DNA of 64,000 nucleotides. Source: Aliiroseovarius sp. F20344. Lineage in GTDB: Bacteria > Pseudomonadota > Alphaproteobacteria > Rhodobacterales > Rhodobacteraceae. Positions 23,832 to 43,748 of the stretch are shown piece by piece. Under the pieces are notes generated by a model that did not search any database, was not told where the DNA came from, and saw nothing but the letters and a program-made list of their open reading frames with translations. How positions within the stretch are numbered: position 1 is the stretch's first letter; each line of letters starts with the position of its first letter. The stretch spans positions 186,001-250,000 of the forward strand of contig NZ_JALKBG010000003.1 in assembly GCF_023016155.1 (NCBI RefSeq). The letters run 5' to 3'. A program made the position numbers and the translations under genes.

Positions 23832-23861
23832 TAGTTACGCAGACCTGTGAAATTTGGATCA
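23832..23861 (-). promoter_or_regulatory. Autoregulatory RpoE promoter of rpoE-chrR
   Basis: On the minus strand TGATCC (23861-23856), 18 bases, TAACTA (23837-23832). TGATCC is the -35 described for R. sphaeroides RpoE promoters. Transcription should begin near 23825, about 70 nt before the GTG start chosen for rpoE. The remaining stretch to 24081 carries only a weak A+T-rich stem (AAACAC 23895-23900 with GTGTTT 23911-23916, then T-run) and the DadA-like gene's promoter region. Confidence 0.75.
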
Positions 23862-24081
23862 CAATTTCACGGTAAGCTGCCGCGATTTTCTCGTAAACAC
23901 TTATTTCGGGGTGTTTTTTTGCCATTTATTTCCGCCTGGCAGATGTCCAGAAATTGCACGCGCCAGCCACTCGGACCTGCCTGCGTTAAACTTGACAAAC
24001 ACTTGGCCATGCCCATCGTACCAAGAAAACCATGGCGATCATCCCCGCTACAATCTAATGCACCACTGCCGAGGAGCAATA

Positions 24082-25338: not shown

Positions 25339-25396
25339 CACGAACTTAAAGATCCGGCAGGTTGATTTTTCTATTGGTTCCCGTCAAGTCATAGGC

Positions 25397-28401: not shown

Positions 28402-28422
28402 CCCTGCGGAAATCCGCAGGGC
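28401..28422. terminator. Hairpin at the end of the DctD-like gene
   Basis: GCCCTGCGGA (28401-28410) and TCCGCAGGGC (28413-28422) form a perfect 10-bp inverted repeat starting on the last base of the regulator stop codon. There is no T-run directly after it, so it may slow or partly stop transcription ahead of the TRAP operon or act as a 3' stabiliser. Confidence 0.45.
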
Positions 28423-28513
28423 AGCCCACACCACCCCGGCAGTTTTCTTCATACGCATTTACCTTCAGATGCTGTTTACTCACTCCATAATGAATTCTGG
28501 GAGGAAATCAGAC

Positions 28514-29524
28514 ATGAAGAAATATCTGAACGGTGCCGTTGTCGCCACCATCGCCGCAACTTTTGCAGGACAAGCGCTGGCCACGGAATGGAACGTGTCC
28601 CTGTGGGGCAAACGCCGCGCTTTCACTGAACACGTCGAAAAACTGGCTGAACTGGTGTCGGAAAAAACCGGGGGCGAGTTCACGCTGAATCTGTCATATG
28701 GCGGCCTAAGCAAGAACCGAGAAAACCTCGACGGTATCTCGATCGGCGCGTTTGAGATGGCGCAGTTCTGCGCCGGCTATCACCGCGACAAAAACCCTTC
28801 GATCACTGTACTTGAGCTGCCTTTCCTTGGCGTAAGCTCACTTGAGCAAGAAGTGGCTCTCTCGATGGCTGTCTATAAGCACCCGGCCACCGTTGCCGAT
28901 CTTGCACGTTGGAATGCAACGCCGCTGATGCCATCGCCCTTGCCGCAGTACAATATCGTAGGTGGCGGTGACGCACCTGCGTCGCTGGGTGACTTCAAAG
29001 GACTTAGCGTTCGGGCCACTGGTGGCATCGGGAAAGCGATGGAGACCATTGGCGCCGTTCCGACCTCTATGTCCGCGTCAGAAGTTCGTCAGTCCATGGA
29101 CAGCGGCGTTGTGAAGGCCGTAGCTTTTGCGCCCCATGCGCATATGTCCTATGGCACGATCGAGAATGCCACCTGGTGGACGTCGAACCTGAACCCCGGC
29201 ACGGTGAACTGCCCGGTTGTGGTCAACTCAGATGCGCTGGCTGATCTTAGCGACGATCATCGCGACGCCCTTATGGGATCGATCGACGAAGCTATGGATC
29301 ACTACCTGGCCAACTACAACGGCGCGACAATGGATGCCTGGGGCCCCGCTCTTGAAGAGCGCGGCATCGAGGTTGTGACATTCTCGGACGACGAGATTGC
29401 AGCCTTCAAAGAAGCCGCCGCTGCCCCTGCCGCTGCTGCATGGATCGAACAGAACACTGCCGCAGGCCTGCCTGCACAAGAGCTGTACGACCTCGTCACC
29501 GGCATGATCGCAGACGGGCAATAA
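28514..29524 (+). CDS. TRAP transporter solute-binding protein (DctP family)
   Basis: This periplasmic receptor of 336 residues has a signal peptide (GAVVATIAATFAGQALA). The family arginine segment GLSVRATGGIGKAME is present and should bind the carboxylate of the ligand. GGGAGG precedes the ATG at 28514; upstream frame codons back to 28364 are not used. Clear DctQ and DctM genes follow after a hairpin. Substrate: an organic acid, not readable from sequence. Confidence 0.92.
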   Translation: MKKYLNGAVVATIAATFAGQALATEWNVSLWGKRRAFTEHVEKLAELVSEKTGGEFTLNLSYGGLSKNRENLDGISIGAFEMAQFCAGYHRDKNPSITVLELPFLGVSSLEQEVALSMAVYKHPATVADLARWNATPLMPSPLPQYNIVGGGDAPASLGDFKGLSVRATGGIGKAMETIGAVPTSMSASEVRQSMDSGVVKAVAFAPHAHMSYGTIENATWWTSNLNPGTVNCPVVVNSDALADLSDDHRDALMGSIDEAMDHYLANYNGATMDAWGPALEERGIEVVTFSDDEIAAFKEAAAAPAAAAWIEQNTAAGLPAQELYDLVTGMIADGQ

Positions 29525-29536
29525 CCCGTAGATCCC

Positions 29537-29568
29537 ATGAGCCCGCACCGGTCTTGGCGCGGGCTCAT
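29537..29568 (+). terminator. Intercistronic hairpin between DctP and DctQ genes
   Basis: ATGAGCCCGC (29537-29546) and GCGGGCTCAT (29559-29568) form a perfect 10-bp stem followed by CCCTTTCTTC. Such hairpins after the binding-protein gene commonly lower the amount of membrane components relative to the receptor. Confidence 0.6.
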
Positions 29569-29594
29569 CCCTTTCTTCATCGCATGAGGCATCC

Positions 29595-30218
29595 ATGGCG
29601 ACCGCATCCCTTGTGCTGAGTGACGACAGCCTCCTCAGCAGAATTGATCGTGCATTCTTACGTATCGAACGCACCTTTTGCCTGATCAGCGGGCTGGCTG
29701 TTTTTTCGCTGATGATCCTTGCAGTGGTTTCGGTTGGAGGCCGCAATGCGCTGGGTTCCCCACTGCCGGGCTATGTCGATTGGATCGAACAGGCCATGCC
29801 GCTGATTGCCTTCATGGGAATTTCGTTTGTGATGCGCGAAGGCGGGCACATTCGCATGGACATTGTTGTGGGTCGACTTAAGGGCCGAACGCTGTTCACC
29901 GTCGAGTTAATCACAACATTGGCGGTTCTCGCTTTGATGATCCTGATGCTTTGGGGATCATGGGCGCATTTCCAACGCAGTTTCGATTTCGGCGCTCCGA
30001 TGTGGAGTCGCGACAGCTCGATGGATATTGCGCTGCCGATCTGGCCCGCGAAGCTGATGGCACCCTTGGCATTTGGTATCCTGTGTGTGCGGTTGTGCCT
30101 TCAGGTTTGGGCCTATCTTCGCGCCATTCTAACCGGGAACCCGATTGCGATCCCGCTACCCGCTGACGCCGCCACACAGGCGCAGATGGAAGCCAACCAA
30201 CTGGAAGAGCAAAGCTGA
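29595..30218 (+). CDS. TRAP transporter small permease (DctQ family)
   Basis: This 207-residue membrane protein has four likely helices. Family signs are the SLMILAVVSVGGRNAL helix, WIEQAMPLIAFMGISFVMREGGHIRMD (the E-x-x-H-I-x-x-D type motif) and a last helix near residue 155. The stop overlaps the DctM start by one base. Confidence 0.92.
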   Translation: MATASLVLSDDSLLSRIDRAFLRIERTFCLISGLAVFSLMILAVVSVGGRNALGSPLPGYVDWIEQAMPLIAFMGISFVMREGGHIRMDIVVGRLKGRTLFTVELITTLAVLALMILMLWGSWAHFQRSFDFGAPMWSRDSSMDIALPIWPAKLMAPLAFGILCVRLCLQVWAYLRAILTGNPIAIPLPADAATQAQMEANQLEEQS

Positions 30219-31618
30219 TGGAACCTATCGAAATCGGACTTTGGGTCACTGGTGGCCTCCTGATCATGGTCTTCCTTGGGATGCGCGTGGCGTTTGCAGC
30301 GGCTCTTGCTGGGATGATCGGTCTTGTCTGGATTTTCTGGGCCAAAAAGGACTATGGGCTTGATGATTTCGGATGGGCGCTTGGCGTTGCGGTCAAAACC
30401 GCAGGTCAGGTGCCACACTCCAAAGTCTCCAGTCAGGCCTTGTCCCTGATCCCGACTTTCATCCTAATTGGATACCTTGCCTACTACGCGGGCCTTACAA
30501 AAGCACTGTTCGAAGCTGCAAAGCGCTGGATTGCGTGGGTGCCCGGTGGACTTGCCGTGTCGACGGTGTTTGCAACGGCCGGGTTCGCTGCCGTTTCTGG
30601 GGCATCGGTCGCAACCTCGGCAGTTTTTGCGCGCATCGCAATTCCCGAGATGTTGAAGATCGGATACGACAAAAGGTTCGCAGCAGGGGTCGTGGCGGCA
30701 GGTGGCACGCTTGCCTCTCTGATCCCGCCATCCGCGATCCTTGTGATCTACGCCCTGATCGTTGAACAGGACGTGGGAAAACTGCTTCTGGCTGGATTTA
30801 TCCCCGGCGCGTTCTCGGCCTTGATCTACGGTCTTTTGATCATCGGGATGGCTCTGGTGATCAAAGGATTTGGCCCGCCGGTGACGGGCTACACGTGGAA
30901 AGAGCGCTTGGTCTCGCTTCCACCAGCCCTGCCCATCGTCTTCGTGGTCGTGACGATCATTTGCTTTGTCTACAACCCGTTTGGAGGCGACGCTTGGGGC
31001 ACCCCAACAGAAGGCGGCGCAATCGGAGCATTCGTGGTCTTTCTAATGGCGCTTTATCGCGGCATGCGGTGGGCGCAATTGAAAGAGGCATTGCTGGAAA
31101 CCGCCAAGCTAAGCGTCATGATCTTTACCATCATCTGGGGCGTTCTGGTCTACGTGCGCTTCTTGGGATTTGCCGACTTGCCCAGCGCATTCTCGGACTG
31201 GATCACGTCCTTAGAGATGTCGCCCATGTTGATCCTTGTTTGCATCTTGCTGGCCTATGCGGTGCTGGGAATGTTTATGGATGCTATCGGAATGCTGCTT
31301 CTGACACTCCCCGTTGTCTATCCCGCCGTGATGGCCCTAAACGGCGGAGAGTTCGTCAGCGCCGCTGACAGCACGTTCGGCATGTCAGGGCCTATGTGTG
31401 CAATCTGGTTTGGCATACTCGTCGTTAAGATGGCCGAGTTCTGTTTGATCACCCCACCCATCGGCTTAAACTGCTTTGTGGTGGCAGGCGTTCGGGACGA
31501 TCTAAGCGTGCAGGATGTGTTCAAGGGCGTGACGCCGTTTTTCATCGCAGATGCCATTACGATCGCCCTGCTTGTCGCGTTCCCGGCCATTGTACTTTGG
31601 CTGCCCAGCCTGGCGTGA
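30218..31618 (+). CDS. TRAP transporter large permease (DctM family)
   Basis: This 466-residue permease has about twelve helices and performs sodium-coupled import with DctQ and DctP. Family motifs include the GASVATSAVFARIAIPEMLKIGYD segment, AAGGTLASLIPPSAILVIYALI near residue 165, and FMDAIGMLLLTLPVVYP in the second half. The next gene is convergent and ends 56 nt away; I see no clear terminator in between. Confidence 0.93.
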   Translation: MEPIEIGLWVTGGLLIMVFLGMRVAFAAALAGMIGLVWIFWAKKDYGLDDFGWALGVAVKTAGQVPHSKVSSQALSLIPTFILIGYLAYYAGLTKALFEAAKRWIAWVPGGLAVSTVFATAGFAAVSGASVATSAVFARIAIPEMLKIGYDKRFAAGVVAAGGTLASLIPPSAILVIYALIVEQDVGKLLLAGFIPGAFSALIYGLLIIGMALVIKGFGPPVTGYTWKERLVSLPPALPIVFVVVTIICFVYNPFGGDAWGTPTEGGAIGAFVVFLMALYRGMRWAQLKEALLETAKLSVMIFTIIWGVLVYVRFLGFADLPSAFSDWITSLEMSPMLILVCILLAYAVLGMFMDAIGMLLLTLPVVYPAVMALNGGEFVSAADSTFGMSGPMCAIWFGILVVKMAEFCLITPPIGLNCFVVAGVRDDLSVQDVFKGVTPFFIADAITIALLVAFPAIVLWLPSLA

Positions 31619-31673: not shown

Positions 31674-33650
31674 CTAAAGTTTCAGCCCAATCTTTCGCCC
31701 TTCGTAGAATGCAAATGGCGCTTGTCTGGGGGCAACGCAGTCGCCGACCTGATGAAACTCCGACTTGGCCTCGTGCAAGTCGTCGGCGACCATCGTGAAC
31801 GAAGTGTTCGTCGTCGCAAGGACCAGTGTATCCGCTGGCACAAGCTGGCTTTCGTCATTCAACAACGACCTTACCGTGGCCCCTTCTGCCCCCCATCTGT
31901 CGATCACGGTTTCTGTTTGGAAGCGCGCACCGTAGCCCGACAGGGCTTTGCGGGCGCGGTGATCTGCCGTGGTGCGGATCAATTCTTTGCCCACCAGCGC
32001 ATCAGGTGTGACAATGGTGACGTCATGCCCTTTTTCCGCAAGATGCCAGGCTGTACCTACACCCCGCCAGTTGCCGCCTTCATCCAAAATCACCACGCGC
32101 TGGCCAATTGGAACTTCGCGACGCAGCACCTCTTCGACCGAGACAACGTTTCCCTGTTCCAGCCCCGGAAGCTCTGAAATCTCAGGGCGAAAGCGCTGCC
32201 ATCCAGTGTTCGCAGGTAAGGACCCGGTTGCAACCACAACCTCATCCGCTGCAAAGGCTGAAATGTCGTCCGCATCCATGAAGTGATTGAGCCGAACGTC
32301 GACACCCAGTTGTTCAAGTTGCCGTTCATACCAATCCAAAAGTTCGAGGATCTGACCGCGACGGGGTTGCAGCCCAGCCAGTCGAAATTGCCCTCCAATT
32401 AGCGGTGCCGCCTCGCAGATGGTAACCGTGTGACCACGTTCTGCCGCGACTCTGGCGGCTTCCAAGCCAGCTGGCCCTGCGCCAATGACCAAAACTGTTT
32501 TCGGATCAGACGAGGACTTAAGCGGCTCGCCACCCCATTCCCATTCGCGGCCAGCTGATGGATTGATAAGGCACGAAATCCAGTAATCGCGGGACCGACG
32601 CCCCCAACACATTTGATTGCACGAAATGCAGCCGCGAACATCTGCATCACGACCTTCGGTTATCTTGCGTGCCAGATGTGGATCCGCGATCTGACCACGA
32701 ACAATCGACACCAGATCCGCCTGACCCGCCCTGAGCACATCGCGCGCGTTATCCGGCGTTCTGATCTGGCTTTCAGATTGAACGCGTGCGGTCTTGAGCT
32801 GGGCCTTGAGCTGAGTGGTGACGTCGACGCTCAGCTTCTCGCCATACACAAAACTGGGCATCACTTTATCGAATTCCAGATAACTTCCAGACCCGCAGGT
32901 CACATAGTCAAGCTGACCCGTTGCATCATGCACTTTCGCGATATCCACCAGTTGTTCGACCGACAACGCAACCGGTTCGCTGGGGGCGATGCTGATCGAC
33001 AAGCCAATGATGAAATCCTCGCCACAGGCTTTACGAATGCCGTCTTGAATACGCAATCCGAACCTTAGCCGGCTTTCCAACGATCCACCCCAACGGTCTG
33101 TTCGCGTGTTCGATGTAGGGCGCCAGAACTGCTCGATCAGCGAATGATATGCGGCCCAAATCTCAACCCCGTCAAACCCTGCTTTTTGGCAGCGCACCGC
33201 CGCGCGTATGAACCCAGCGATACACTCCTCAATCTCGGCATCCGTCAAGGCATGACTGCCGTCACTGTCATGGTAGCTGGGCTGCCCAGAGGGCGACACG
33301 TTCGGTGCATAGGATAGGTCCGCATCGCCGTGCTGCCCGATATGGTAAAGCTGCTGAAGTATAACCGCACCTTCTGCTTTGCATGCTTCGGTGAGGCGTT
33401 GAAAGCCGGGGATAACGTCATCGTCATCAACCCGAAAATTTCCCCGGGTCAGAACTGCGTATTGGTCCGTCGGCATAGGCTCGACCACAATCATGCCTGC
33501 GCCACCGCGCGCGCGTTCTAGATAGTATTGCAGGTGCTGTTCTGCTGGCAGGCCCAATCGGGACATATTCGCGGTATGCGCCCCAAAGACAATACGATTG
33601 CGCAGGGTGCAATGGCGAAGCACCAAGGGCTCAAGAGCGGGATCGTTCAT
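31674..33650 (-). CDS. Old-yellow-enzyme / FeS NADH:flavin oxidoreductase
   Basis: This 658-residue protein of the 2,4-dienoyl-CoA reductase / trimethylamine dehydrogenase family has an N-terminal FMN TIM barrel (AYHSLIEQFWRPTSNTRTDRWGGSLESR, a variant of the usual HGYLLxQFLSP), the 4Fe-4S cysteines in CISCNQMCWGRR...SCLINP (C-x2-C-x3-C-x11-C), and a C-terminal FAD/NAD part (VLVIGAGPAGLEAARVAAERGH). ATG at 33650 has AAGGA upstream. Relatives reduce enoates or demethylate methylated amines such as stachydrine. It is the last gene of the minus-strand cluster from 38542, 75 nt after the aldehyde dehydrogenase. Confidence 0.92.
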   Translation of the reverse strand: MNDPALEPLVLRHCTLRNRIVFGAHTANMSRLGLPAEQHLQYYLERARGGAGMIVVEPMPTDQYAVLTRGNFRVDDDDVIPGFQRLTEACKAEGAVILQQLYHIGQHGDADLSYAPNVSPSGQPSYHDSDGSHALTDAEIEECIAGFIRAAVRCQKAGFDGVEIWAAYHSLIEQFWRPTSNTRTDRWGGSLESRLRFGLRIQDGIRKACGEDFIIGLSISIAPSEPVALSVEQLVDIAKVHDATGQLDYVTCGSGSYLEFDKVMPSFVYGEKLSVDVTTQLKAQLKTARVQSESQIRTPDNARDVLRAGQADLVSIVRGQIADPHLARKITEGRDADVRGCISCNQMCWGRRSRDYWISCLINPSAGREWEWGGEPLKSSSDPKTVLVIGAGPAGLEAARVAAERGHTVTICEAAPLIGGQFRLAGLQPRRGQILELLDWYERQLEQLGVDVRLNHFMDADDISAFAADEVVVATGSLPANTGWQRFRPEISELPGLEQGNVVSVEEVLRREVPIGQRVVILDEGGNWRGVGTAWHLAEKGHDVTIVTPDALVGKELIRTTADHRARKALSGYGARFQTETVIDRWGAEGATVRSLLNDESQLVPADTLVLATTNTSFTMVADDLHEAKSEFHQVGDCVAPRQAPFAFYEGRKIGLKL

Positions 33651-33725
33651 TTGGGTCCTTCCAATCCATCGCAACTCACCGTGGCTGAGATCATTGCGAT
33701 CAGTTTCTGCGTGATCGCCGAACTG

Positions 33726-35189
33726 TCAACGCATAATGAACGGGTCCGGAATTGGATCATCGCTTGTGCGCAGCCAGACGGTTTTGATCGTCGTGTAGTC
33801 GAGCAGGGCCTGCAGCCCACCTTCGCGACCGTGACCTGACAAGCCATAGCCACCAAATGGCGCGATTGGACTGACGGCGCGGTAGGTGTTCACCCAGACA
33901 ATGCCCGACCGAATGGCATTGATCATACGATGTGCGCGCGTCAGGTTCTGCGTGAACACACCAGCAGCCAATCCGAACTCCGTATCATTGGCCATTTCGA
34001 TTGCCTCTGCCTCGTCTTCAAAGCTGAGTACAGACAGAACCGGACCAAAGAACTCATTACTTAAACAGGGCGCGTCCGGCGCGTTGGCGCAGTCAATAAT
34101 AGTCGGCGGGAAGTAGAAACCATCGCCTTCCAACGCCACGCCTCCGGTCACCAGTTTCGCTCCTACGTCCAACGACCGTGCGATCAGATCTTTCGCAGTC
34201 TCACGCTGACGCATCGTGCACAGTGGCCCAACTTCGGTCGCCATATCATCGGGCGCGCCAATCACAATCGCTTCTGCCTTAGCCTTCAGGCAGGCCAGAA
34301 ACTCGTCTTTGATCGACGCGTGAACCAGCAAGCGTGAACCAGCTACACAGCTTTGCCCCGTTGCGGCGAATATGCCCGACACCTGAGCATTTGCCGCGCT
34401 TTCGATATCCGCGTCGTCAAACACGATGAAGGGGGATTTGCCACCAAGCTCGAGCGACGTAGTGGCAAGGTTCTCGGCCGAGTTACGAACAATATGGCGC
34501 GCCGTTTCCGCCCCACCTGTGAACGCCACATGGTCAACTTTCGGATGGCGTGTCAAAGCAGCTCCAGCATCCGGCCCCCCTGTAATGATGTTCAGAACGC
34601 CCTTGGGAAAGCCAACCTGATCAAAGATCTTGGCGAACTCCAACATAGGTGCGGGGCCATCTTCGGATGCTTTCAGAACCACCGTGCAACCCGCCGCCAA
34701 GGCAGGGGCGATCTTTACGGCAGACAGAAATAACTGAGAGTTCCACGGCACAACTGCTGCAACGACACCAACCGGTTCGCGCCGCAGCCAGACTTCCATA
34801 TCCGGTTTGTCGATCGGCAGATGCGCGCCTTCGATCTTGTCCGCCAGTCCCGCGAAATAGCGGAAGTATTCGGCGACATAAGCGATCTGCGCGCTGGTTT
34901 CCCGGATGATCTTGCCGGTGTCACGGGTTTCGATTTCGGCCAGCCGTTGAGCGTTCTCGGCCACTAGGTCCGCAAGTGTCGAAAGCAATTTACCCCGCGC
35001 CGTTGCCGTCATTCCTGCCCATTCAGGAGAAAGGAACGCGCCTTGCGCTGCTTGAACGGCAGCATTCACATCATCTTCACATGCATTTGCCATCAGCGCC
35101 CATACCTGCCCCGTGGCTGGATCGAGGCTTTCAAATTGCGTCGCGCCATCCGAAAACTGACCACCAATATAGTGCTGAAAGATCTGCAT
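33726..35189 (-). CDS. NAD(P)-dependent aldehyde dehydrogenase
   Basis: This 487-residue ALDH has the PWNSQLF cofactor site, AFTGGAETARHIV, the catalytic Glu in LELGGKSP and the catalytic Cys in GQSCVAGSR. Start ATG at 35189 lies one base after the stop of the monooxygenase gene; a longer frame inside that gene is not used. In this cluster it probably oxidises an aldehyde formed by ring opening or hydrolysis, by analogy with TgnC in trigonelline degradation. Confidence 0.93.
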   Translation of the reverse strand: MQIFQHYIGGQFSDGATQFESLDPATGQVWALMANACEDDVNAAVQAAQGAFLSPEWAGMTATARGKLLSTLADLVAENAQRLAEIETRDTGKIIRETSAQIAYVAEYFRYFAGLADKIEGAHLPIDKPDMEVWLRREPVGVVAAVVPWNSQLFLSAVKIAPALAAGCTVVLKASEDGPAPMLEFAKIFDQVGFPKGVLNIITGGPDAGAALTRHPKVDHVAFTGGAETARHIVRNSAENLATTSLELGGKSPFIVFDDADIESAANAQVSGIFAATGQSCVAGSRLLVHASIKDEFLACLKAKAEAIVIGAPDDMATEVGPLCTMRQRETAKDLIARSLDVGAKLVTGGVALEGDGFYFPPTIIDCANAPDAPCLSNEFFGPVLSVLSFEDEAEAIEMANDTEFGLAAGVFTQNLTRAHRMINAIRSGIVWVNTYRAVSPIAPFGGYGLSGHGREGGLQALLDYTTIKTVWLRTSDDPIPDPFIMR

Positions 35190-35190
35190 C

Positions 35191-36243
35191 TTACCCCCCA
35201 TGCCCCTGTTCGAATGCTGGCATGACTTCATTGATAAACCGCTCAAGCGACGCTTTCTTGCGTTCAAAAGTCATAGAGCTGTCGATCCAGAACGAATACT
35301 CATCATACCCCAATTCTTCGTATTTCTTCAGACGTTTGATGACCGTTTCCGGTGTGCCAATCACCAAATCGCGTTCCATTGCCTCTGGCGAATAGAACGG
35401 ATGTGAAGCGATCTCTTCCTCCGAAAGCGGGTCGATTAAGCCTTGCGATATATCGCGCTTGTTCATGAACCAAGCACCGAAGTAGCAGTAAAAACGGTTC
35501 AGTTCCTCTGCGCCAAGCTTGGCGTCCTTATCACTATCAGCAACATAGATGTGCTGAAGAAGCATGATCTTTGGACGAGGATGCTCGGAAAACTTTTCAC
35601 AGGCATCGTTGAATTTCTGCATCAAGCTTTCCACCTCGGCCTCGCCGTTCCAAAGCGGGGTCACCTGCACGTTACATCCGTTCGAGACGGCAAATTCGTG
35701 ACTGTTCGGATCGCGTGCGGCAATCCAGATCGGAGGGCCGTCTTTTTGCATCGGCTGCGGGGCTGATGTGGTGCTTGGGAACTGGAAGAACTCGCCGCTA
35801 TGGGCGTAGTCACCTTTCCAAAGCTGCTTCACTGCAGGAACCAATTCGCGCATCCGCTGTCCTGCTTCCCACGCATCCATTCCTGGCATCAAGCGTTCAT
35901 ATTCGAACGAATAGGCCCCGCGCGCGATCCCTACGTCAAGGCGGCCATTCGTAATAAGGTCGGTCATCGCCGCCTCACCCGCCAACCGGATAGGGTGCCA
36001 GAACGGAGCCACCACAGTCCCGGTCCCAACGCGCACATTCTTTGTGTGATTTGCGACGTCGACAAGGTTCAGAAATGGGTTGGGTGCAATGGTGAAATTC
36101 ATCCCATGGTGTTCACCCGTCCAGATGGCATGCATGCCGCCCTCGTCAGCAATTTTGCAGAGCTCGATGAACTCATCATACAGCTGCTTCTGGTCTTGAT
36201 CGGGCGATATCCGTTCCATATGCGCGAAAAGAGAGAACTTCAT
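35191..36243 (-). CDS. Luciferase-like (LLM) flavin-dependent monooxygenase
   Basis: This 350-residue oxygenase of the bacterial luciferase family uses reduced FMN from a partner reductase. Typical features are the N-terminal strand SLFAHMER, AIWTGEHHGMNF near residue 42, VRVGTGTVVAPFWHPIRLAGEAA, and VGIARGAYSFEYERL. The gene lies 2 nt after the flavin reductase stop, so the two form a natural two-component oxygenase. The luciferase-like family includes RutA (uracil) and TgnB (trigonelline); the substrate here is not known. Confidence 0.93.
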   Translation of the reverse strand: MKFSLFAHMERISPDQDQKQLYDEFIELCKIADEGGMHAIWTGEHHGMNFTIAPNPFLNLVDVANHTKNVRVGTGTVVAPFWHPIRLAGEAAMTDLITNGRLDVGIARGAYSFEYERLMPGMDAWEAGQRMRELVPAVKQLWKGDYAHSGEFFQFPSTTSAPQPMQKDGPPIWIAARDPNSHEFAVSNGCNVQVTPLWNGEAEVESLMQKFNDACEKFSEHPRPKIMLLQHIYVADSDKDAKLGAEELNRFYCYFGAWFMNKRDISQGLIDPLSEEEIASHPFYSPEAMERDLVIGTPETVIKRLKKYEELGYDEYSFWIDSSMTFERKKASLERFINEVMPAFEQGHGG

Positions 36244-36245
36244 GA

Positions 36246-37163
36246 CTACCCCTCTGTTGTCAGCGGACGCACTTTGCCGCTTATCTGATTGCCGTAATAA
36301 ACCCCGAAATTCCCCATGCGATTTTCCCGCGCGAACCGATCCAGCATCGTGCAGATCACCGGATCTGCGACGCTCATCAAAGTGGTTTCACCAAGGTCGG
36401 TAAACTTGCCCTTGGTACTGGTCGGTCGGCTGGCTTGGCATAAGAACGAGATATGTTGCGTTTCGCGCGCTTCATCTTCGTAGACCGAATAGACAAATCC
36501 GGGTTCGGCCTCGACGCCAACGTCCGAAATCAGGCGCTTTAGCGTTTCGGTTGCTCCGCTGCGGCCCAGTTTGCTTTCGGGAAGGGTCAGTCTTCCATCT
36601 TCATTACCCAATAACAGCACCTTGCCATCATATTCGATCAAAGCGGAAATCATCAGGTCGGCGCTGTTCGTGACGGCCTCAGCCTCCGCGGCAGGGGTGA
36701 CATAGGCCCCACGGGCGTATCCAAGGCCGGGGTGTGTTGTTGTATCAAAGGCTTCCACCCTGCCGATCAAAATCAGGTGGTCCCCGGCGTCCACCCGATT
36801 GAACATCGAGCAATCGAACCAAGCTGCAACACCCGAAAAGATGGGGGACCCTTGTGGGCCACATGTCCAATCAACCGTGGCAAAGCGGTCCTCAACCGGG
36901 CTTGCGAAAGTATTAGACACCTTCATTTGATCTTCGGCCAACACATTCACCGCAAAGCCTTCAGCCGCGTTGAACGCAGCGAAGTTACGCGAACTGTTGG
37001 CAAGGCAGACCAGCACTAATGGCGGATCGAGCGAAACCGAGGTGAACGAGTTTGCGGTAAAGCCAATTGGCTGCCCAGATGCATCATGCGTGGTCACAAC
37101 CGTGACCCCGGTCATGAAGGTCCCAAATGCATTGCGCAGGGCGCGCGGGTCGATCTCAGACAT
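36246..37163 (-). CDS. Flavin reductase with a degenerate Nudix-like C-terminal domain
   Basis: Residues 1-160 are a DIM6/NTAB-type flavin reductase: FGTFMTGVTVVTTHD, GFTANSFTSVSLDPPLVLVCL, then NVLAEDQ. It supplies reduced flavin to the LLM oxygenase next door. Residues of about 165-305 look like a Nudix fold (ALIEYDGKVLLLGNEDG, LPESKLGRSGATETLKRLI), but the catalytic REUXEEXGU box is not conserved, reading KRLISDVGV. I infer a regulatory or docking domain. The gene overlaps the hydrolase upstream by 8 nt. Confidence 0.9.
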   Translation of the reverse strand: MSEIDPRALRNAFGTFMTGVTVVTTHDASGQPIGFTANSFTSVSLDPPLVLVCLANSSRNFAAFNAAEGFAVNVLAEDQMKVSNTFASPVEDRFATVDWTCGPQGSPIFSGVAAWFDCSMFNRVDAGDHLILIGRVEAFDTTTHPGLGYARGAYVTPAAEAEAVTNSADLMISALIEYDGKVLLLGNEDGRLTLPESKLGRSGATETLKRLISDVGVEAEPGFVYSVYEDEARETQHISFLCQASRPTSTKGKFTDLGETTLMSVADPVICTMLDRFARENRMGNFGVYYGNQISGKVRPLTTEG

Positions 37164-37968
37164 TTCGATCTCCTACGATTGGGGCATTAAGCCAATTGGA
37201 CAAGGCAGCGTTCACAAGCGTTGGTGCCGTCAGGTTTACCATATGTCTGTGCCCTTCAATCACTACAGACCGACCATTCACGGCTTCTTCGGCCATGGCT
37301 TTGGCCATTTCAGGGGTCGAGTTTTGATCCCCGTCGCCCGTCAGCGCCAGCATCGGACACATGATTTCACCCATTCGATCCGCATAGGTCGCGTCACCGC
37401 GTGCAAAGGCATTATAGGCTGTCGCGTATCCATCCAGATCAACATCTGACAGCCAGTTCGAGACCTGAGCACGCGCAGCTTGGTCTTCCGCGCTTTGACC
37501 AAACCAACGGGTTAGGGGCGTTTCCAGATCATACCCGCCGCCACGGATTTCATCAGCACGTGCGATAACTGCTGCGCGTGCAGTATCGGTGCGACGATGA
37601 ACTCCGTTAAGTAGCGCCACACGGGTGACCAAATCGGGATGTGTTATCGCAAGGCCGCTTGCAATCAGCGCCCCCATCGAATGCCCTGCAAGGGCAACCG
37701 GACCAAGATCCAGCGCCCGCAAGACCGCCTTCAACCAGTCCACAAAATCGGGAAGCTGCGCGTCTTTGGATAGAGGATCGCTGCCGCCATGTCCCGGCAT
37801 GTCCACCGCAACAACGCGATGTGTGCTCGACAGATGCTCGATCTGTGGACCCCAAGCAGCAGATTGCATGCCGACGCCATGAACCAAAACCACAGGATCA
37901 TCTGACCCAGCGATCTGCGCCGTGACTTCACCGTAGGGCTTAGACAGCTGCAGGGTTGTCGACATCAT
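37156..37968 (-). CDS. Alpha/beta hydrolase
   Basis: The 270-residue hydrolase has an oxyanion motif VLVHGVGMQS, a nucleophile elbow AGHSMGALIAS, a probable acid in LTGDGDQNS and a catalytic His in IEGHRHMVNL. It overlaps DUF1185 by 29 nt at its 5' end and the flavin reductase at its 3' end. It probably hydrolyses an amide or ester intermediate, as RutD- or TgnD-type proteins do in comparable pathways. This is inference from context. Confidence 0.92.
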   Translation of the reverse strand: MMSTTLQLSKPYGEVTAQIAGSDDPVVLVHGVGMQSAAWGPQIEHLSSTHRVVAVDMPGHGGSDPLSKDAQLPDFVDWLKAVLRALDLGPVALAGHSMGALIASGLAITHPDLVTRVALLNGVHRRTDTARAAVIARADEIRGGGYDLETPLTRWFGQSAEDQAARAQVSNWLSDVDLDGYATAYNAFARGDATYADRMGEIMCPMLALTGDGDQNSTPEMAKAMAEEAVNGRSVVIEGHRHMVNLTAPTLVNAALSNWLNAPIVGDRNV

Positions 37969-38542
37969 GACCCAGTTCCTTCAGATCCTGATAGCGATCT
38001 CCGATCCGGTGATGGGGTTGACCGCCGATGGACGCGCCCAGCGCTATGACGATTTCATCCGGTGCGGGGGCGTCGGCGATCTGTGTTTGGATGGTCAGGT
38101 AGTGACTACGACGCCCGGCATCATGTTTGTCCATCAAAGGAATTTGCAACGACGCATTCGCCGGACCGCGCGTGTTGGTGAAAGACAGATAGGACTTCGC
38201 CCCCACGGCCTCGCGGTAGAAGTTTCCAAACTGCAACGTGTGGATCAGGGCCGAGCCGTGTTCGACTTCCCCGTTCACACCAACAATGGCCGATTTTCCA
38301 TACCCTTCGACCTTGTCCCCGCCGCCCGCGGCATCAAGGACCATACCTGTCAGCAACTGCCCCAACCCCGGCGCACAATCAAGGATCGCTGGCTTCAGGT
38401 TTTCGACAAAGCCCTGCCCGGCCCACGGGTTACGGATCACAGCAATTGCTGCAATCATGGTCAGCGGCGTTTCTGCGACTTTCCCACCTTCGATCAGGTT
38501 GTTTTCAACGTGCAAAAGGGTTTTGCGGATTTCTGCGGGCAT
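37940..38542 (-). CDS. DUF1185 ("amino acid synthesis") family protein
   Basis: This 200-residue protein of a poorly described family has a conserved ETPLTMIAAIAVIRNPWAGQGF near the N-terminus, KSAIVGVNGEVEHGSALIHT in the middle and IGDRYQDL near the C-terminus. ATG at 38542 has GAGGT 6 nt upstream. It is the first gene of the operon after the palindromic operator at 38575. No catalytic role is established for the family; repeated occurrence beside LLM oxygenases suggests a pathway enzyme or isomerase of small amides or lactones. Confidence 0.85.
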   Translation of the reverse strand: MPAEIRKTLLHVENNLIEGGKVAETPLTMIAAIAVIRNPWAGQGFVENLKPAILDCAPGLGQLLTGMVLDAAGGGDKVEGYGKSAIVGVNGEVEHGSALIHTLQFGNFYREAVGAKSYLSFTNTRGPANASLQIPLMDKHDAGRRSHYLTIQTQIADAPAPDEIVIALGASIGGQPHHRIGDRYQDLKELGHDVDNPAAV

Positions 38543-38574
38543 GATGCACCTCACTACGACTCAGTCGCCGTATC

Positions 38575-38586
38575 ATGGTATACCAT
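38575..38586. promoter_or_regulatory. Perfect palindrome ATGGTATACCAT, candidate GntR operator
   Basis: The 12-bp perfect dyad contains TGGTATACCA, which fits the TNGTNNNACNA-like pattern bound by FCD-type GntR proteins. It is midway between the DUF1185 start (38542) and the GntR start (38644), so it can control both directions. Binding by the neighbouring regulator is inferred. Confidence 0.68.
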
Positions 38587-38643
38587 AATCTTGTATGTCA
38601 ATAATTCCTTGCCCACACACCGCGCGACTGGTATCCATCCGGC

Positions 38644-39324
38644 ATGAACAAACCCGTGCTTTCAAGAATAACGCAGCCCCCCGCAACATTGCGCGATATT
38701 GTTCAAGACCGCATGCGGGATGCGATCATTGAGGGGCACTTCAAGCCCGGTGAACGGCTGGTTGAACGCCCGCTTTGTGAACAACTCGGCGTGAGCCGCA
38801 CCGTTATCCGCGAGACTATTCGCTATCTGGAAGCCGAAGGTCTGGTCGAGATACTTCCGGGTCGCGGTCCCATCGTCGCGGAAATGACGTGGGACGATGC
38901 CAAGCAGATTTACGAGATCCGACGCATGCTTGAAACAGCGGCAGCACGCACCTGCGCTTTGCGGATCACGCCTGATCGCAAGAAAACGCTCAAGGCCGCG
39001 TTGCAGCAACTTGAACTGGCTTTCGATGATCCCGTTCCCGGAAGCCTTTTTCGCGCCACCGCTGATTTTTACGCAGAGATTTTTGAGGGTGCAGGTCAGG
39101 ATATTGCCTGGACCATCGTACAGCGCTTGAATGGGCGGATCAGCCGGTTGCGCATGCTAACGCTGGCGACAACTGATCGCGCACAGCCCGGTTTGAAGCA
39201 CATGCAAGCAATTTGCGCGGCGATTGTCTCGGGCGATGCGGATGCGGCTGAAACGGCTGTGCAGAACCATCTGAATGACACCACCGCAATTGCCGAACGC
39301 CTGTTGGCCGAAGAAGATGAGTAA
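38644..39324 (+). CDS. GntR-family (FCD) regulator of the heterocycle-type cluster
   Basis: This 226-residue regulator has an N-terminal winged helix (DAIIEGHFKPGERLVERPLCEQLGVSRTVIRETIRYLEAEGLV) and a FCD ligand domain. In the FCD metal site the Asp of ATADFYAEIFE is kept but the residue four later is Glu, where His is usual, so the metal or ligand site may differ. It diverges from the six-gene catabolic operon and is followed at 2 nt by DUF1330. I infer repression via 38575-38586, released by a pathway substrate. Confidence 0.9.
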   Translation: MNKPVLSRITQPPATLRDIVQDRMRDAIIEGHFKPGERLVERPLCEQLGVSRTVIRETIRYLEAEGLVEILPGRGPIVAEMTWDDAKQIYEIRRMLETAAARTCALRITPDRKKTLKAALQQLELAFDDPVPGSLFRATADFYAEIFEGAGQDIAWTIVQRLNGRISRLRMLTLATTDRAQPGLKHMQAICAAIVSGDADAAETAVQNHLNDTTAIAERLLAEEDE

Positions 39325-39326
39325 CG

Positions 39327-39617
39327 ATGCCTAAAGCCTATTGGATTGCCAATGTGACGGTTACCGATCGCGAAGCCTATCAGGGATATCAGGCCGTCGC
39401 TCCGGAAGCCTTTGCGCGGTTTGGTGCCCGTTTTCTGGCGCGTGGCGAGGCGGAAACTCTTGAGGGCACCGATTGGCAGCGACGTGTCATCATTGAGTTT
39501 GATAGCATCGACCAAGCGCGCGCCTGTTACCAATCAGAAGAATACCGAACAGCCCGTGCCAAACGGGCCGGAGCATGCGACGCAGACATTGCCCTTATCG
39601 AAGCGTTGGACAATTAA
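39327..39617 (+). CDS. DUF1330 domain protein
   Basis: This 96-residue ferredoxin-like alpha/beta barrel protein has the family N-terminus YWIANVTVTDREAYQGY and a late AKRAGACDADIALIEAL. Its role in the family is unknown; it is common in degradation clusters. Only 2 nt separate it from the GntR stop. Confidence 0.9.
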   Translation: MPKAYWIANVTVTDREAYQGYQAVAPEAFARFGARFLARGEAETLEGTDWQRRVIIEFDSIDQARACYQSEEYRTARAKRAGACDADIALIEALDN

Positions 39618-39628
39618 GGAACCGCTTT

Positions 39629-40033
39629 ATGGAAAAATCGAACCCAAACCTGTTTGAGGTCGGACTGGAGCGCCGCAAATCCACGCTTGGCGCGGAGTAT
39701 GTTGAAAAGAATCTTGAGGCCGCAGATGAGTTTAACCGCGGATTTCAAGAGGCCATGACCGAATGGTGTTGGGGCTTTGGCTGGGGCGATGATGCCATCG
39801 ACGCAAAAACACGTTCCCTGATGAACCTCAGCATGATCGGCGCGCTTGGTAAGATGCACGAATGGGAGCTGCATTTGAACGGCGCCATCAACAACGGCTG
39901 CACGATGGAGGAAATCCGTGCGGCCATTCATGTGATCGCGATTTATTGCGGTGTCCCACAAGGGGTGGAGTGTTTCCGCATCGCTCGCAAAGTGCTTGAA
40001 GACCGCGACTTGCTGCCAAAAAATTCGGCGTAG
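39629..40033 (+). CDS. Carboxymuconolactone decarboxylase family protein
   Basis: This 134-residue protein of the AhpD/CMD fold begins at ATG 39629 (AAGGA upstream). It shows GDDAIDAKTRSLMNLSMIGAL and the CMD active-site region TMEEIRAAIHVIAIYCGVPQGVECFR. The typical AhpD C-x-x-C redox pair is not present, so it resembles the decarboxylase side more than the peroxidase side. It probably acts in the divergent pathway. Its stop abuts the convergent kinase stop with no spacer. Confidence 0.9.
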   Translation: MEKSNPNLFEVGLERRKSTLGAEYVEKNLEAADEFNRGFQEAMTEWCWGFGWGDDAIDAKTRSLMNLSMIGALGKMHEWELHLNGAINNGCTMEEIRAAIHVIAIYCGVPQGVECFRIARKVLEDRDLLPKNSA

Positions 40034-41482
40034 CTACCTTCGGCAAATCTCAAGGCAGGCACGCAGCCCGTGCTGTCCAGTTTCAAAGTAAAGCCGCCCA
40101 CCGTGCTGTTCAGCGACGGTTGCAACGATGGTCAGCCCCAAGCCGAACCCGTCAATCGCACGCGTGTTATCCCCGCGTTTGAACGGGGCCACGACCGCTT
40201 CGATGTCTTCGGCAGACATGCCCGATCCTTCATCCTCAACAACAATCGTGGCATGCTCTGGGGTCGCCGTCATCTGGACCGAGGCACGACGCCCGTATTT
40301 CAATGCATTGTCGATTAGGTTCGAGATTGCGCGCTTCAAAGACACTGGGCGCGCCATAACCAACATGCGCTGTTCATCCGGCAGCGCCGCCAAGCCAGAG
40401 GTTGCGGCAAAAACGGATCGTCCCCCTTCACCACTGGGATTTTGCAGGGCCACAAGTGACACCGGCCGCTCCATGTCCTGATAATCGGCCACCAACGCAT
40501 CAACGAGCGAAGTCAACGACAGCTTGCGCGGTGTCTCTTCGTTAAGTTCCGCCCTTGTATAGGTCAGTACGCTTTCAATCATCTCGGTCATGCTGTCGAT
40601 GTCTGCTTCCAGCTTTTCGCGCAGGTCGGTTTCCTTGATCAACGCGGTACGCAGGCGAAGACGTGTGGCGGGTGTTCCCAGATCATGACTGACACCGGAC
40701 AGAACCATTGCGCGTTTGGACAGCTGCGCGCGTTCCTGTTCAAGGTGAGCGTTTACCGCCAACACTGTCTGTCGCAGTTCGGCTGGACCATGAACATCAT
40801 AGCTGTCTGGACCGCCAAGCCGACCCCGTTCCCGTAAGGCGTTGGCAAATCGGTCGAAATGCGCAGATGTGTCCAGAACCACCGTCGACAGGATGGCGAC
40901 GGCAACCAAAGTCAACAGGACGGCAGCGAGCCGCAAATCGGCCGGAGCGGCATCGCAGCCCCAAATAGATTGCCCATCAATGCGCACCCATGGCTGCACA
41001 CCCATGCGGGCAAACAGCACCGGGTCAGCGCAATATGTCGCCAGAAGGCGCGTTACATTCCCGAATTTCTGTGCCGCCGTCTGACCTTCATTCGACACCA
41101 GTTCCGACACGGCATACTGAAGCTCGCCCGATACGATGCCGACATTCAACGACGACCCTGAAACAGGGTCACGCCCCGCACCGATGATCGAGATATTGGT
41201 TACAATCGCAGGCGTCGGAATGCCTTGCAGCCGGGAAAACTCGCCCCGCGTCGCCAACACCGCGTCTTCATTGGACAGCTTGGACACAACCACCCCATCT
41301 GGTGGTTCTGCCCCGACGCGCAAGGATTCATAAAGCGATACACCGGTGACATAACTGCGGGTCAGATGGTCTTGCCATGCTTTGGTTGAAGAGAACCAAA
41401 GCCAGCCTGCACCGAACGCAGCGGTAAAGCAGCCAAGGATCAACAACAGTCCAAGCGTTCGGATCTGCAACCCGCGGCTCAT
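40034..41482 (-). CDS. Sensor histidine kinase of the glucose-type ABC system (GtrS-like)
   Basis: This 482-residue kinase has a first TM near residues 8-30 and a second near 183-203, a periplasmic sensor between them, a HAMP-like linker, H-box LSGVSHDLGTPATRLRLR, N-box ISNLIDNALKYG and G-box GFGLGLTIV. It overlaps its response regulator by 4 nt and stands divergent from gtsA-like genes. In Pseudomonas the GtrS-GltR pair controls gtsABCD, so the same logic probably applies. The periplasmic domain is not one I can assign to a known ligand. Confidence 0.87.
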   Translation of the reverse strand: MSRGLQIRTLGLLLILGCFTAAFGAGWLWFSSTKAWQDHLTRSYVTGVSLYESLRVGAEPPDGVVVSKLSNEDAVLATRGEFSRLQGIPTPAIVTNISIIGAGRDPVSGSSLNVGIVSGELQYAVSELVSNEGQTAAQKFGNVTRLLATYCADPVLFARMGVQPWVRIDGQSIWGCDAAPADLRLAAVLLTLVAVAILSTVVLDTSAHFDRFANALRERGRLGGPDSYDVHGPAELRQTVLAVNAHLEQERAQLSKRAMVLSGVSHDLGTPATRLRLRTALIKETDLREKLEADIDSMTEMIESVLTYTRAELNEETPRKLSLTSLVDALVADYQDMERPVSLVALQNPSGEGGRSVFAATSGLAALPDEQRMLVMARPVSLKRAISNLIDNALKYGRRASVQMTATPEHATIVVEDEGSGMSAEDIEAVVAPFKRGDNTRAIDGFGLGLTIVATVAEQHGGRLYFETGQHGLRACLEICRR

Positions 41483-42216
41483 GCAGAGCCTTCTACGTCT
41501 ACGTCTGTTGCGAAAACATACCCGATGCCGCGTTCAGTGCGCAAAAGCTCGGGCTGTTTCGGGTCACTTTCAATCTTCCCGCGCAAACGCCCAACCAGAA
41601 CGTCGATGGCGCGGCCGGATGCCTCTGCGCCCTGCCCCTCACCTGTCACATCTAATGAGGTGGCAATCTCTTCTCGGGTCAAAGGGATATGCGGATTGGC
41701 CAGAAGAACCTTCAGCAGTGCTGTTTCCTTGCGCGATAGAGCGACTTGAAACCCTTGGGGCGACGTCACCTCATCTAGCTTGGCGTCATAGGTCCAACCG
41801 GCAAAGCGAAACGTCGAGACACTTCGACGATAAACCAGAGACGCGCTTCGCTTGGCGCGAGATAGAACTGCGCGCACACGTGCCAAAAGCAAATCGGGGT
41901 TAAAAGGCTTGGCGATATAGTCATCCGCCCCCACCTGATACCCCGCCATACGGTGATGATCGGCAGACAAGGCCGAGACGAGGATAATAGGGACGTCCTG
42001 TTCATCACGCAGACGCGCGCAGATCTCGACACCGTTTTCATCGCCCAGCATCACATCCAGCAATATCAGGTCGACTCGCCCATTTGTTAAGTGCTCCATG
42101 ATCGCGCTTTCGCTATCACAGGGCAGGGCAATGAAACCGTTCTGGCGCAGATACTGGGTCATCATGCCCCGCGTATCTACGTCATCATCAACGACCAGAA
42201 GTCGTGGAATCGCCAT
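41479..42216 (-). CDS. OmpR-family response regulator (GltR-like)
   Basis: This 245-residue regulator has a receiver domain (LLVVDDDVDTRG, phospho-acceptor in LILLDVMLGDENG, Lys in YIAKPFNP) and an OmpR-type winged helix (SRKETALLKVLLANPHIPLTREEI, RAIDVLVGRLRGKIE). ATG at 42216 has GGAGG upstream; earlier in-frame ATGs reach into the regulatory region. It likely binds the phased repeats at 42269-42314 to control the transporter. Confidence 0.9.
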   Translation of the reverse strand: MAIPRLLVVDDDVDTRGMMTQYLRQNGFIALPCDSESAIMEHLTNGRVDLILLDVMLGDENGVEICARLRDEQDVPIILVSALSADHHRMAGYQVGADDYIAKPFNPDLLLARVRAVLSRAKRSASLVYRRSVSTFRFAGWTYDAKLDEVTSPQGFQVALSRKETALLKVLLANPHIPLTREEIATSLDVTGEGQGAEASGRAIDVLVGRLRGKIESDPKQPELLRTERGIGYVFATDVDVEGSA

Positions 42217-42268
42217 GTCCGTGTTCCTCCCTCGGGACCATGAAACCAAATTCATTGTCCGCTTGTCT

Positions 42269-42314
42269 GTAACAGCGTGCAACAAAATCAAGGCTTGCGT
42301 AACATCAAGTAACA
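42269..42314. promoter_or_regulatory. Four helically phased G(T/C)AACA repeats, candidate regulator site
   Basis: GTAACA at 42269, GCAACA at 42279, GTAACA at 42299 and GTAACA at 42309 are placed 10, 20 and 10 bp apart, all on one face of the helix. This is the arrangement expected for dimers of an OmpR-type regulator. The block lies between the divergent regulator (42216) and gtsA (42441). Confidence 0.62.
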
Positions 42315-42440
42315 AATTGGCTGAAATTCTACGCATAGAACCCGTGATTGGCTGCATCAGCCATTGCGCAAAGCCGGGTAAGATCGGCAGGCTTGGGACA
42401 GCGTCGCCAAATGTTTGGTGACCTAAGGGAGGAAAATCTG

Positions 42441-43685
42441 ATGAAAAAATCCGTATTCGCGGCCGTTTCGGCTATTGCTGTAACTTGCGCCATGCCCGCC
42501 ATGGCCGAGCCTCAGGCAGAAGTTCTGCACTGGTGGACATCGGGCGGTGAAGCCAAGTCTGTTGCCGTTCTGCAAAAAGAATTCGCCGATAATGGCGGAA
42601 CGTGGACCGACATGCCGGTTGCTGGTGGTGGTGGTGATGCTGCCATGACTGCACTGCGCGCACGTGTTCTGTCGGGCAACGCACCGACCGCCGTTCAGCT
42701 GAAAGGCCCTGCCATTCAGGAATGGTATGAAGAAGGCGTTCTGGCCGACATCTCGGCCGTAGCAGAAGCCGAAGGCTGGGCAGACGTTCTGCCTGCTTCG
42801 ATCGCAGGTCACATGAAATGTGAAGGCACTTGGTGTGCTGCCCCCGTCAACGTTCACCGCGTGGACTGGATTTGGGCCAACGCTGACGTTCTGGAAGCAA
42901 ACGGCATCGCAATGCCAACCACCTGGGACGAGTTCAACGCCGCCGCTGACAAGCTGGCAGCTGCCGGCATCACCCCGCTGGCCCATGGTGGTCAGGCATG
43001 GCAGGACGCCACCGTGTTCGAAGCTGTTGCATTGGGCATCCTTGGCGCAGACGGCTTCAAGAAAGCCTTTGTTGATCTGGACATGGACACTCTGAAGTCC
43101 GACAAAATGGTCGCCGTCTTTGACCAGATGCGCAAAATGCGCGGTTATGTCGACGACAACTTCTCGGGTCGTGACTGGAACCTTGCCACCGCGATGGTCA
43201 TGAATGGCGAAGCCGCCTTCCAGATCATGGGTGACTGGGCCAAAGGTGAATTCCTTGCCGCAGGCAAAGCGCCGGGCGAAGACTTCCTGTGTGCTTCGGT
43301 TCCGGGTGATGGCTTCCTGTACAACGTTGACAGCTTTGCCATGTTCAACGTGGATGGTGACGACAAGAAAGCTGGTCAGGACCTTCTGTCCAAGCTGATC
43401 GTTGGTCAAAACTTCCAGAAAGTGTTCAACCTGAACAAAGGTTCGATCCCGGCACGTGTAGACGTTGCCCTGGATGATTTCGACAGCTGTGCACACCTGT
43501 CCGCCAAAGACATGAGCGAGAGCTCGGACAACGGCTCGCTACTGCCAAGCTATGCCCACGGCATGGCGCTGCGTGGTGCGCAGTCGGGTGCAATCACCGA
43601 TGTGGTGACCGCACATTTCAACTCGGACATGTCCTCGGCTGATGCTGTGAACCAGCTGGCCGACGCCGTCGCAAACTCCATGTAA
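42441..43685 (+). CDS. gtsA: Glucose/sugar ABC transporter binding protein (GtsA-like)
   Basis: This 414-residue periplasmic protein has a signal peptide (AAVSAIAVTCAMPAMA). It shares the hallmark pieces of the Pseudomonas glucose-binding protein: EVLHWWTSGGEA, WTDMPVAGGGGDAAMTALRARV, APVNVHRVDWIW, AHGGQAWQDAT, YVDDNFSGRDWNLA and MGDWAKGEFLAAGKAPGEDF. GGGAGG precedes the ATG. Glucose and possibly mannose or other hexoses are likely substrates. A stem follows the stop. Confidence 0.9.
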   Translation: MKKSVFAAVSAIAVTCAMPAMAEPQAEVLHWWTSGGEAKSVAVLQKEFADNGGTWTDMPVAGGGGDAAMTALRARVLSGNAPTAVQLKGPAIQEWYEEGVLADISAVAEAEGWADVLPASIAGHMKCEGTWCAAPVNVHRVDWIWANADVLEANGIAMPTTWDEFNAAADKLAAAGITPLAHGGQAWQDATVFEAVALGILGADGFKKAFVDLDMDTLKSDKMVAVFDQMRKMRGYVDDNFSGRDWNLATAMVMNGEAAFQIMGDWAKGEFLAAGKAPGEDFLCASVPGDGFLYNVDSFAMFNVDGDDKKAGQDLLSKLIVGQNFQKVFNLNKGSIPARVDVALDDFDSCAHLSAKDMSESSDNGSLLPSYAHGMALRGAQSGAITDVVTAHFNSDMSSADAVNQLADAVANSM

Positions 43686-43693
43686 ATCTCCCT

Positions 43694-43724
43694 GGCCTCG
43701 CGTCTGACTTTCTGGTGCGGGGCC
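43694..43724 (+). terminator. Hairpin between gtsA-like and permease genes
   Basis: GGCCTCGC (43694-43701) pairs with GCGGGGCC (43717-43724), 8 bp with one G-U. It lies just after the binding-protein stop and has no long T-run, so it would reduce rather than stop read-through. Confidence 0.45.
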
Positions 43725-43748
43725 TCCTTATATTCAGGGATCGTTACA

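Follow-up and report, generated by a model that had tools for sequence, protein, structure and literature searches.

A cluster of nine genes in Aliiroseovarius sp. F20344 is, with high probability on the evidence of its sequence, a degradation operon for trigonelline (N-methylnicotinate) of a marine, Rhodobacterales-type bacterium. The cluster lies at positions 31674 to 40033 of a 64,000-nucleotide stretch (contig NZ_JALKBG010000003.1 of assembly GCF_023016155.1, positions 186,001 to 250,000), hereafter the window. What can be read directly from the DNA are the families of the encoded proteins, their homology to annotated TgnA, TgnB, and TgnC, a conserved gene order, and a conserved palindrome. 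Trigonelline is a compound of plants and plankton.

Identity of the cluster

Plasmid records were searched by tblastn with the luciferase-like monooxygenase (LLM) protein of the cluster. Matches were obtained in 1215 records, 18 of them at 80 to 90% identity, and one match, in Acinetobacter sp. PK01 (H27), carries the annotation tgnB. The PK01 genes for DUF1330 and GntR proteins diverge from those for an amino acid synthesis protein, an alpha/beta hydrolase, tgnA, tgnB, and tgnC, which is also the order in the window. The core proteins have the PK01 identities listed below, and the accessory proteins are 49% (DUF1330), 48% (GntR), and 46% (CMD) identical; the PK01 CMD gene stands farther off, adjoining the PK01 succinic-semialdehyde dehydrogenase (SSADH) gene. 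The window thus holds what is expected of a tgn cluster: a TgnB-type LLM oxygenase, a TgnA-type reductase, a TgnC-type dehydrogenase, and a TgnF-family protein. The identities and the shared order bear out an earlier suggestion, which we call the original prediction, that the LLM oxygenase, flavin reductase, aldehyde dehydrogenase (ALDH), and hydrolase form a Tgn-type toolkit.

Nine open reading frames were found in the region, six on the minus strand and three on the plus strand, with minus-strand intergenic gaps calculated from coordinates of -29, -8, +2, +1, and +75 nt. Genes, strands, and gaps were as originally described, and Pfam agreed with all nine family assignments (PF06684 AA_synth/DUF1185, alpha/beta hydrolase, Flavin_Reduct, Bac_luciferase, Aldedh, Oxidored_FMN plus Pyr_redox_2, GntR/FCD, DUF1330, and CMD). 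The features are as follows:

37940..38542, minus strand: TgnF-like protein of PF06684 (AA_synth, formerly DUF1185); Pfam match of 225 bits, 68% identity to the PK01 counterpart
37156..37968, minus strand: TgnD-like alpha/beta hydrolase (Pfam); 57% identity to the PK01 hydrolase
36246..37163, minus strand: TgnA-like flavin reductase; 46% identity to annotated TgnA of PK01
35191..36243, minus strand: TgnB-like LLM flavin monooxygenase, the ring-opening component; 76% identity to annotated TgnB of PK01, and tree
33726..35189, minus strand: TgnC-like aldehyde (lactone/lactol) dehydrogenase; 69% identity to annotated TgnC of PK01
31674..33650, minus strand: old yellow enzyme (OYE)-type FMN/4Fe-4S/FAD flavoprotein, after tgnC and outside the conserved cluster (Pfam and structure relatives; 0 of 83 related loci)
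38576..38585, no strand: palindrome TGGTATACCA, which is probably the operator of GntR; present in 68 of 74 spacers
38644..39324, plus strand: GntR/FCD regulator (Pfam), which probably represses the cluster; homologue in 80 of 83 loci
39327..39617, plus strand: DUF1330 protein (Pfam), frequent accessory gene; homologue in 54 of 83 loci
39629..40033, plus strand: CMD-fold protein (Pfam), occasional accessory gene; homologue in 25 of 83 loci

Conservation among related loci

The 83 related loci comprise the best 80 of 585 confirmed stretches from a scan of a genome collection and three plasmid loci (L003 to L005). They were picked by LLM similarity of 71% or more, and the conservation figures therefore describe near relatives. 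The DUF1185, hydrolase, tgnA, tgnB, and tgnC genes were adjacent and in this order in 80 loci, far beyond chance. In 78 of its 80 loci, the GntR homologue was divergent and no more than 2.5 kb away from the DUF1185 gene. The DUF1330 homologue was next to DUF1185, on the divergent side, in 52 of 54 loci, and the CMD homologue was on the divergent side in 17 of 25. Neither the DUF1185 gene nor the reductase gene was found in L058, a 3-kb contig, and DUF1185 was not found in L082, in which the hydrolase gene begins at the contig end. In L060 (9128-11035), as on the short contig of L058, the flavin reductase gene was not found between the hydrolase and LLM genes. The five-gene core and divergent GntR gene of the window are also present in clusters on plasmids of Leisingera and Ruegeria, whereas OYE, DUF1330, and CMD genes were not found by tblastn in L004 and L005; none is annotated in L135, of the same group, in a gene table that is possibly incomplete. 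Rhodobacterales-like tgn clusters were also seen in assemblies labeled Nocardioides marinus (L044) and Flavobacteriia bacterium (L076, with an LLM identical to that of L075), which are probably mislabeled or contaminated.

Phylogeny had been proposed as a check of the LLM protein against tgn. A tree of 88 LLM sequences, from which L076 (a duplicate) and the copies from the window itself were excluded, placed the Acinetobacter TgnB group (10 rows) and the group holding the window (74 rows) on neighboring branches, although the deepest forks are partly open. The branch neighboring that of the window holds Acinetobacter, Xanthomonas, and Paraburkholderia copies. One open fork joins the branches of Acinetobacter TgnB, L069 with L078, L136, and the 74 rows, and the window row itself sits within a 31-row open fork.

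More distant relatives were sampled as 60 records spread down the length of the LLM match list. LLM identities in this sample, where at least half of the query was covered, dropped from 67% to 55%, to 42 to 41%, and to 31% or lower; shorter matches reached up to 37%. An Aquabacterium olei cluster (L136, 6665-11531; LLM 55%) has the same five-gene order plus an SSADH gene, with TGGTATACCA just before DUF1185. A Rhizobium leguminosarum cluster (L137, 6428-11276; LLM 42%) has a different gene order, a CMD gene, and an amino-acid ABC transporter. Both clusters possibly represent related pathways. Within a set of 61 relatives' genomes, the LLM copy was only 67 to 70% identical in 6 of the 12 LLM-bearing genomes. 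Two of the same genus (G002 and G005; L142 to L145) keep the five-gene order with an LLM at 69 to 70%, DUF1185 at 66%, hydrolase at 41 to 43%, reductase at 42%, and ALDH at 57%, but the GntR homologue and exact TGGTATACCA were not found in the stretches of about 30 kb each. Their LLM copies are 64% identical to PK01 TgnB, compared with 76% for the window copy. At a distance of 8 to 17 kb from its cluster, G005 has two genes for Rieske oxygenases, another ALDH gene, and an OYE-family gene. The G002 and G005 cluster may be a sister type for the same or another betaine.

Core enzymes and proposed pathway

The best Protein Data Bank relative of the flavin reductase was 3rh7 (E 2e-89). The hydrolase has a GHSMG nucleophile elbow (residues 95 to 99), and its structure relatives include alpha-(N-acetylaminomethylene)succinic acid hydrolase (3kxp, E 1.4e-12), which acts on a similar substrate; other hydrolases score higher. 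Fold and position are right for TgnD, and the PK01 counterpart itself lacks a tgnD annotation. It is expected that the window hydrolase would, as TgnD, cleave (N-methylformamido)methylene-succinate.

The DUF1185 protein is the only PF06684 match in the genome. It had been regarded as foreign to the Tgn set, a view contradicted by the assignment of TgnF to this family in an excerpt of PMC7913881 and by the first position of the DUF1185 gene in 80 of the 83 clusters. The same excerpt, which gives the result second-hand, relates TgnF by homology to the DUF1185 protein HcdD and credits it with a stimulating effect on TgnE-dependent succinic semialdehyde oxidation in strain ADP1; stimulation of this type was not found for HcdD (PMC7913881).

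A single palindrome between the divergent units had been noted, and it was recovered as the perfect palindrome TGGTATACCA at 38576 to 38585, in the DUF1185-GntR spacer. Alone, it is not significant (two window matches at one mismatch or fewer versus 0.59 expected, with 12 of 100 shuffles reaching two). However, it is kept in 68 of the 74 measurable spacers of the related loci (9 of 83 were not measurable), and the PK01 spacer carries the same operator. The 14-base form TATGGTATACCATA has two sites with two mismatches or fewer in the Aliiroseovarius sp. F20344 genome, the better of which is the cluster spacer. A promoter-like site for the minus-strand operon (38601-38572) is overlapped by the palindrome at its spacer and at the beginning of its second hexamer; this site is weak evidence because the scan gave 2 promoter-like sites in the region versus 5.0 in shuffles. 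TGGTATACCA is likely the GntR operator, and the GntR protein is a probable repressor of the cluster.

For Aliiroseovarius sp. F20344 itself we infer the reactions, the repressor action, the TgnD role of the hydrolase, and the source of TgnE. The order of reactions in the tgn pathway is reportedly that described by Perchat and coworkers in 2018. TgnA would reduce flavin, and TgnB, with reduced flavin and O2, would open the pyridinium ring with no prior hydroxylation. TgnC would convert the hydroxybutyrolactone formed by ring opening to (N-methylformamido)methylene-succinate, from which the hydrolase would release succinic semialdehyde, methylamine, formate, and CO2. In the last step, aided by TgnF, a succinic-semialdehyde dehydrogenase whose gene lies outside the cluster would yield succinate for the tricarboxylic acid cycle. 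GntR bound at TGGTATACCA would keep the divergent units repressed until the substrate or an intermediate appears, and the OYE gene would be a separate flavoenzyme gene that came to sit downstream and is perhaps cotranscribed.

The studied tgn system (TgnA to TgnF) is that of A. baylyi ADP1, with which the window, compared via PK01, shares homologues of TgnA, TgnB, and TgnC, a hydrolase at the place expected for TgnD, and a TgnF-family protein. In contrast to that system, the cluster has no SSADH gene and no transporter like the PK01 cytosine permease alongside, and it has an additional OYE gene. For TgnB, a figure legend of PMC11354265 gives the accession Q6F9F6. Growth evidence comes from Sinorhizobium meliloti. 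The pSymA megaplasmid of S. meliloti 1021 carries the DUF1185, hydrolase, flavin reductase, LLM, and ALDH genes in the order of the window, with a GntR homologue upstream; identities (L129) are 43 to 75%, with LLM at 70%, ALDH at 75%, and DUF1185 at 70%. No DUF1330, CMD, or OYE match was present in the 25 kb of pSymA compared. The wild type, but not a strain lacking pSymA, is described in a methods passage of PMC4207669 as growing on 10 mM trigonelline as the sole carbon source. For Ruegeria pomeroyi, an excerpt of PMC8269262 gives better growth on trigonelline than on homarine, a finding about the strain rather than about the cluster.

Several observations weigh against assigning the cluster to trigonelline. 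The tgn names in PK01 are NCBI annotations, and the likeness to the studied ADP1 proteins is a sequence comparison drawn through PK01. At 46%, the identity of the flavin reductase to TgnA is low. The pSymA growth evidence covers the whole megaplasmid, the pSymA GntR homologue (43%) is on the core's own strand rather than divergent, and exact TGGTATACCA is absent from the 25 kb compared. Excerpts of two studies place DUF1185 proteins outside tgn too (PMC2954203 and PMC7913881). Clusters with the same order and lower-identity partners (G002, G005, and L136) mean that the substrate cannot be deduced from gene order alone. The cluster lacks an SSADH (TgnE) gene, and the best match to the PK01 SSADH, at 54%, is on another contig; a close homologue of the BCCT betaine transporter was not found in the Aliiroseovarius sp. 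F20344 genome (best 37 to 40%).

The OYE gene

The OYE protein is full length, with FMN, 4Fe-4S, and FAD parts. Its nearest solved structures are NCR (6qkg), which we take to be 2-naphthoyl-CoA reductase, and 2,4-dienoyl-CoA reductase. It has the domain layout of this OYE family and a Cys motif that fits a 4Fe-4S center, but in alignments it has other residues at the positions of a dienoyl-CoA reductase Tyr and His, which are presumably the catalytic residues of that enzyme.

It is conceivable, though unlikely, that this flavoprotein works within an extended tgn operon, for example as an N-demethylase or as an ene-reductase acting on a trigonelline intermediate or a second betaine. The gene is on the same strand as tgnC, starts 75 nt past it, and has similar GC content, and no minus-strand terminator-like site was found before it, in a scan that gave no excess of sites over shuffles. 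Folding of a hairpin in the ALDH-OYE spacer was no better than that of shuffles (z -0.11). Homologues at 59 to 62% are often in regions for betaine or imino-acid catabolism. At 58% or more, they were found in 8 other genomes of the set of 61 (one match is partial). Five of these eight have a second, distant OYE gene within about 3 kb, with a proline-racemase-family gene between the two in L122 and L124, whereas L125 and L127 have neither near the homologue. Among four annotated plasmid neighborhoods, three have proline racemase (L138), betaine ABC transporter (L140 and L141), or Ldh-family genes nearby, but L139 lists no betaine gene. Distant OYE-family genes (26 to 31%) also occur about 3 to 14 kb from the LLM clusters in L061 (31%), G002, and G005, in the latter two adjoining Rieske oxygenase genes.

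Co-occurrence was evaluated in 390 genomes drawn evenly from the order (E values up to 1e-150 for LLM and 1e-200 for OYE). LLM was present in 95 genomes, OYE in at least 42 (a lower bound, as no more than three OYE candidates were scored per genome), and both in 12, including Aliiroseovarius sp. F20344, versus 10.2 expected (P 0.31). In ten of the 12, the two genes were separated by over 1 Mb or lay on different contigs; they were about 46 kb apart in G381 and adjacent in Aliiroseovarius sp. F20344 alone. In draft genomes, genes on different contigs may still be close together. No OYE homologue at 40% or more was near tgn in any of the 83 loci. Because of this absence, the chance-level co-occurrence, and the adjacency in a single genome, the OYE gene is best regarded as a probable passenger, or else as an addition of very local extent. 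The original prediction was correct in placing it outside the Tgn set, but a role as a pathway step is not backed by the 83 loci or the 390 genomes. Slightly more doubtful still is an extended trigonelline pathway of this lineage in which the flavoprotein, as a demethylase or reductase of the betaine type, alters what becomes of the N-methyl nitrogen.

Other substrates

It is improbable that the substrate is homarine (N-methylpicolinate), the marine isomer, instead of trigonelline. The relatives of the cluster are largely marine, and an excerpt of PMC8269262 reports homarine above trigonelline in concentration in seawater particles, although an author correction says that homarine was overstated. 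Against this, the LLM protein shares 76% identity with annotated TgnB and is on a branch neighboring the Acinetobacter, Xanthomonas, and Paraburkholderia copies, and TgnA/B ring opening is argued to be sterically unlikely on homarine in that same excerpt (PMC8269262). A homarine pathway with Mgd was published in 2026, according to a passage of PMC13390433. Trigonelline is the substrate candidate of the original prediction that is upheld; the cluster can be explained without homarine or an unknown osmolyte, both of which are at best remotely conceivable.

A Rut-like pyrimidine pathway, with which a comparison had originally been proposed, has almost no likelihood: the reductase and hydrolase resemble the RutF and RutD models weakly, but both fall below the cutoffs (93.8 versus 254.75 bits and 65.6 versus 238.5 bits, respectively), and the RutA model is not among the matches listed for the LLM protein (25 of 30 families). 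The proposal of a new pathway variant for an N-heterocycle was rejected because the core is that of the known tgn cluster. Overall, the original observation is confirmed and its interpretation partly supported.

Uptake, SSADH, and methylamine

An SSADH-like dehydrogenase gene is near 15 of the 83 loci and a BCCT betaine transporter gene near 17, with the families assigned by Pfam on a single representative of each. Aliiroseovarius sp. F20344 has no close BCCT homologue that would account for trigonelline uptake. A tripartite ATP-independent periplasmic (TRAP) transporter at 28364 to 31618 is accompanied by a DctB/DctD-like pair of its own. The three subunits all have homologues (69 to 92%) near tgn in 2 of 83 loci (L037 and L060), and DctP alone has one in L048; this transporter is a candidate for trigonelline uptake. 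The plus-strand region from 23854 to 31618 encodes an FAD oxidoreductase (DAO), the DctB-like sensor kinase, the DctD-like sigma-54 regulator, and the DctPQM TRAP transporter. On the other side (40034-45510), minus-strand genes for a sensor kinase and a response regulator (Trans_reg_C) adjoin a plus-strand ABC transporter with an SBP_bac_1 binding protein.

No type III glutamine synthetase exceeded the curated cutoff in the Aliiroseovarius sp. F20344 genome or, counting it, in 11 of the 12 LLM-bearing genomes in the set of 61. We take this model to represent GmaS, the first enzyme of the N-methylglutamate route, and its absence means that methylamine may be released. A check for methylamine dehydrogenase was uninformative because the controls gave no match. 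The OYE protein as an answer to the missing methylamine route is unsupported; ten other LLM-bearing genomes of the genus likewise lack GmaS. Two LLM-bearing genomes without GmaS (G014 and G019) have an OYE homologue at 59 to 60%, on a contig other than that of the LLM gene.

Implications

The cluster adds a well-supported marine member to the known set of tgn clusters, with the OYE gene as its one local oddity. The core, the DUF1185 gene, and the specific operator recur across alpha-, beta-, and gammaproteobacteria. In the 11 LLM-bearing genomes without GmaS, Aliiroseovarius sp. F20344 included, methylamine from trigonelline may be left to other microbes.

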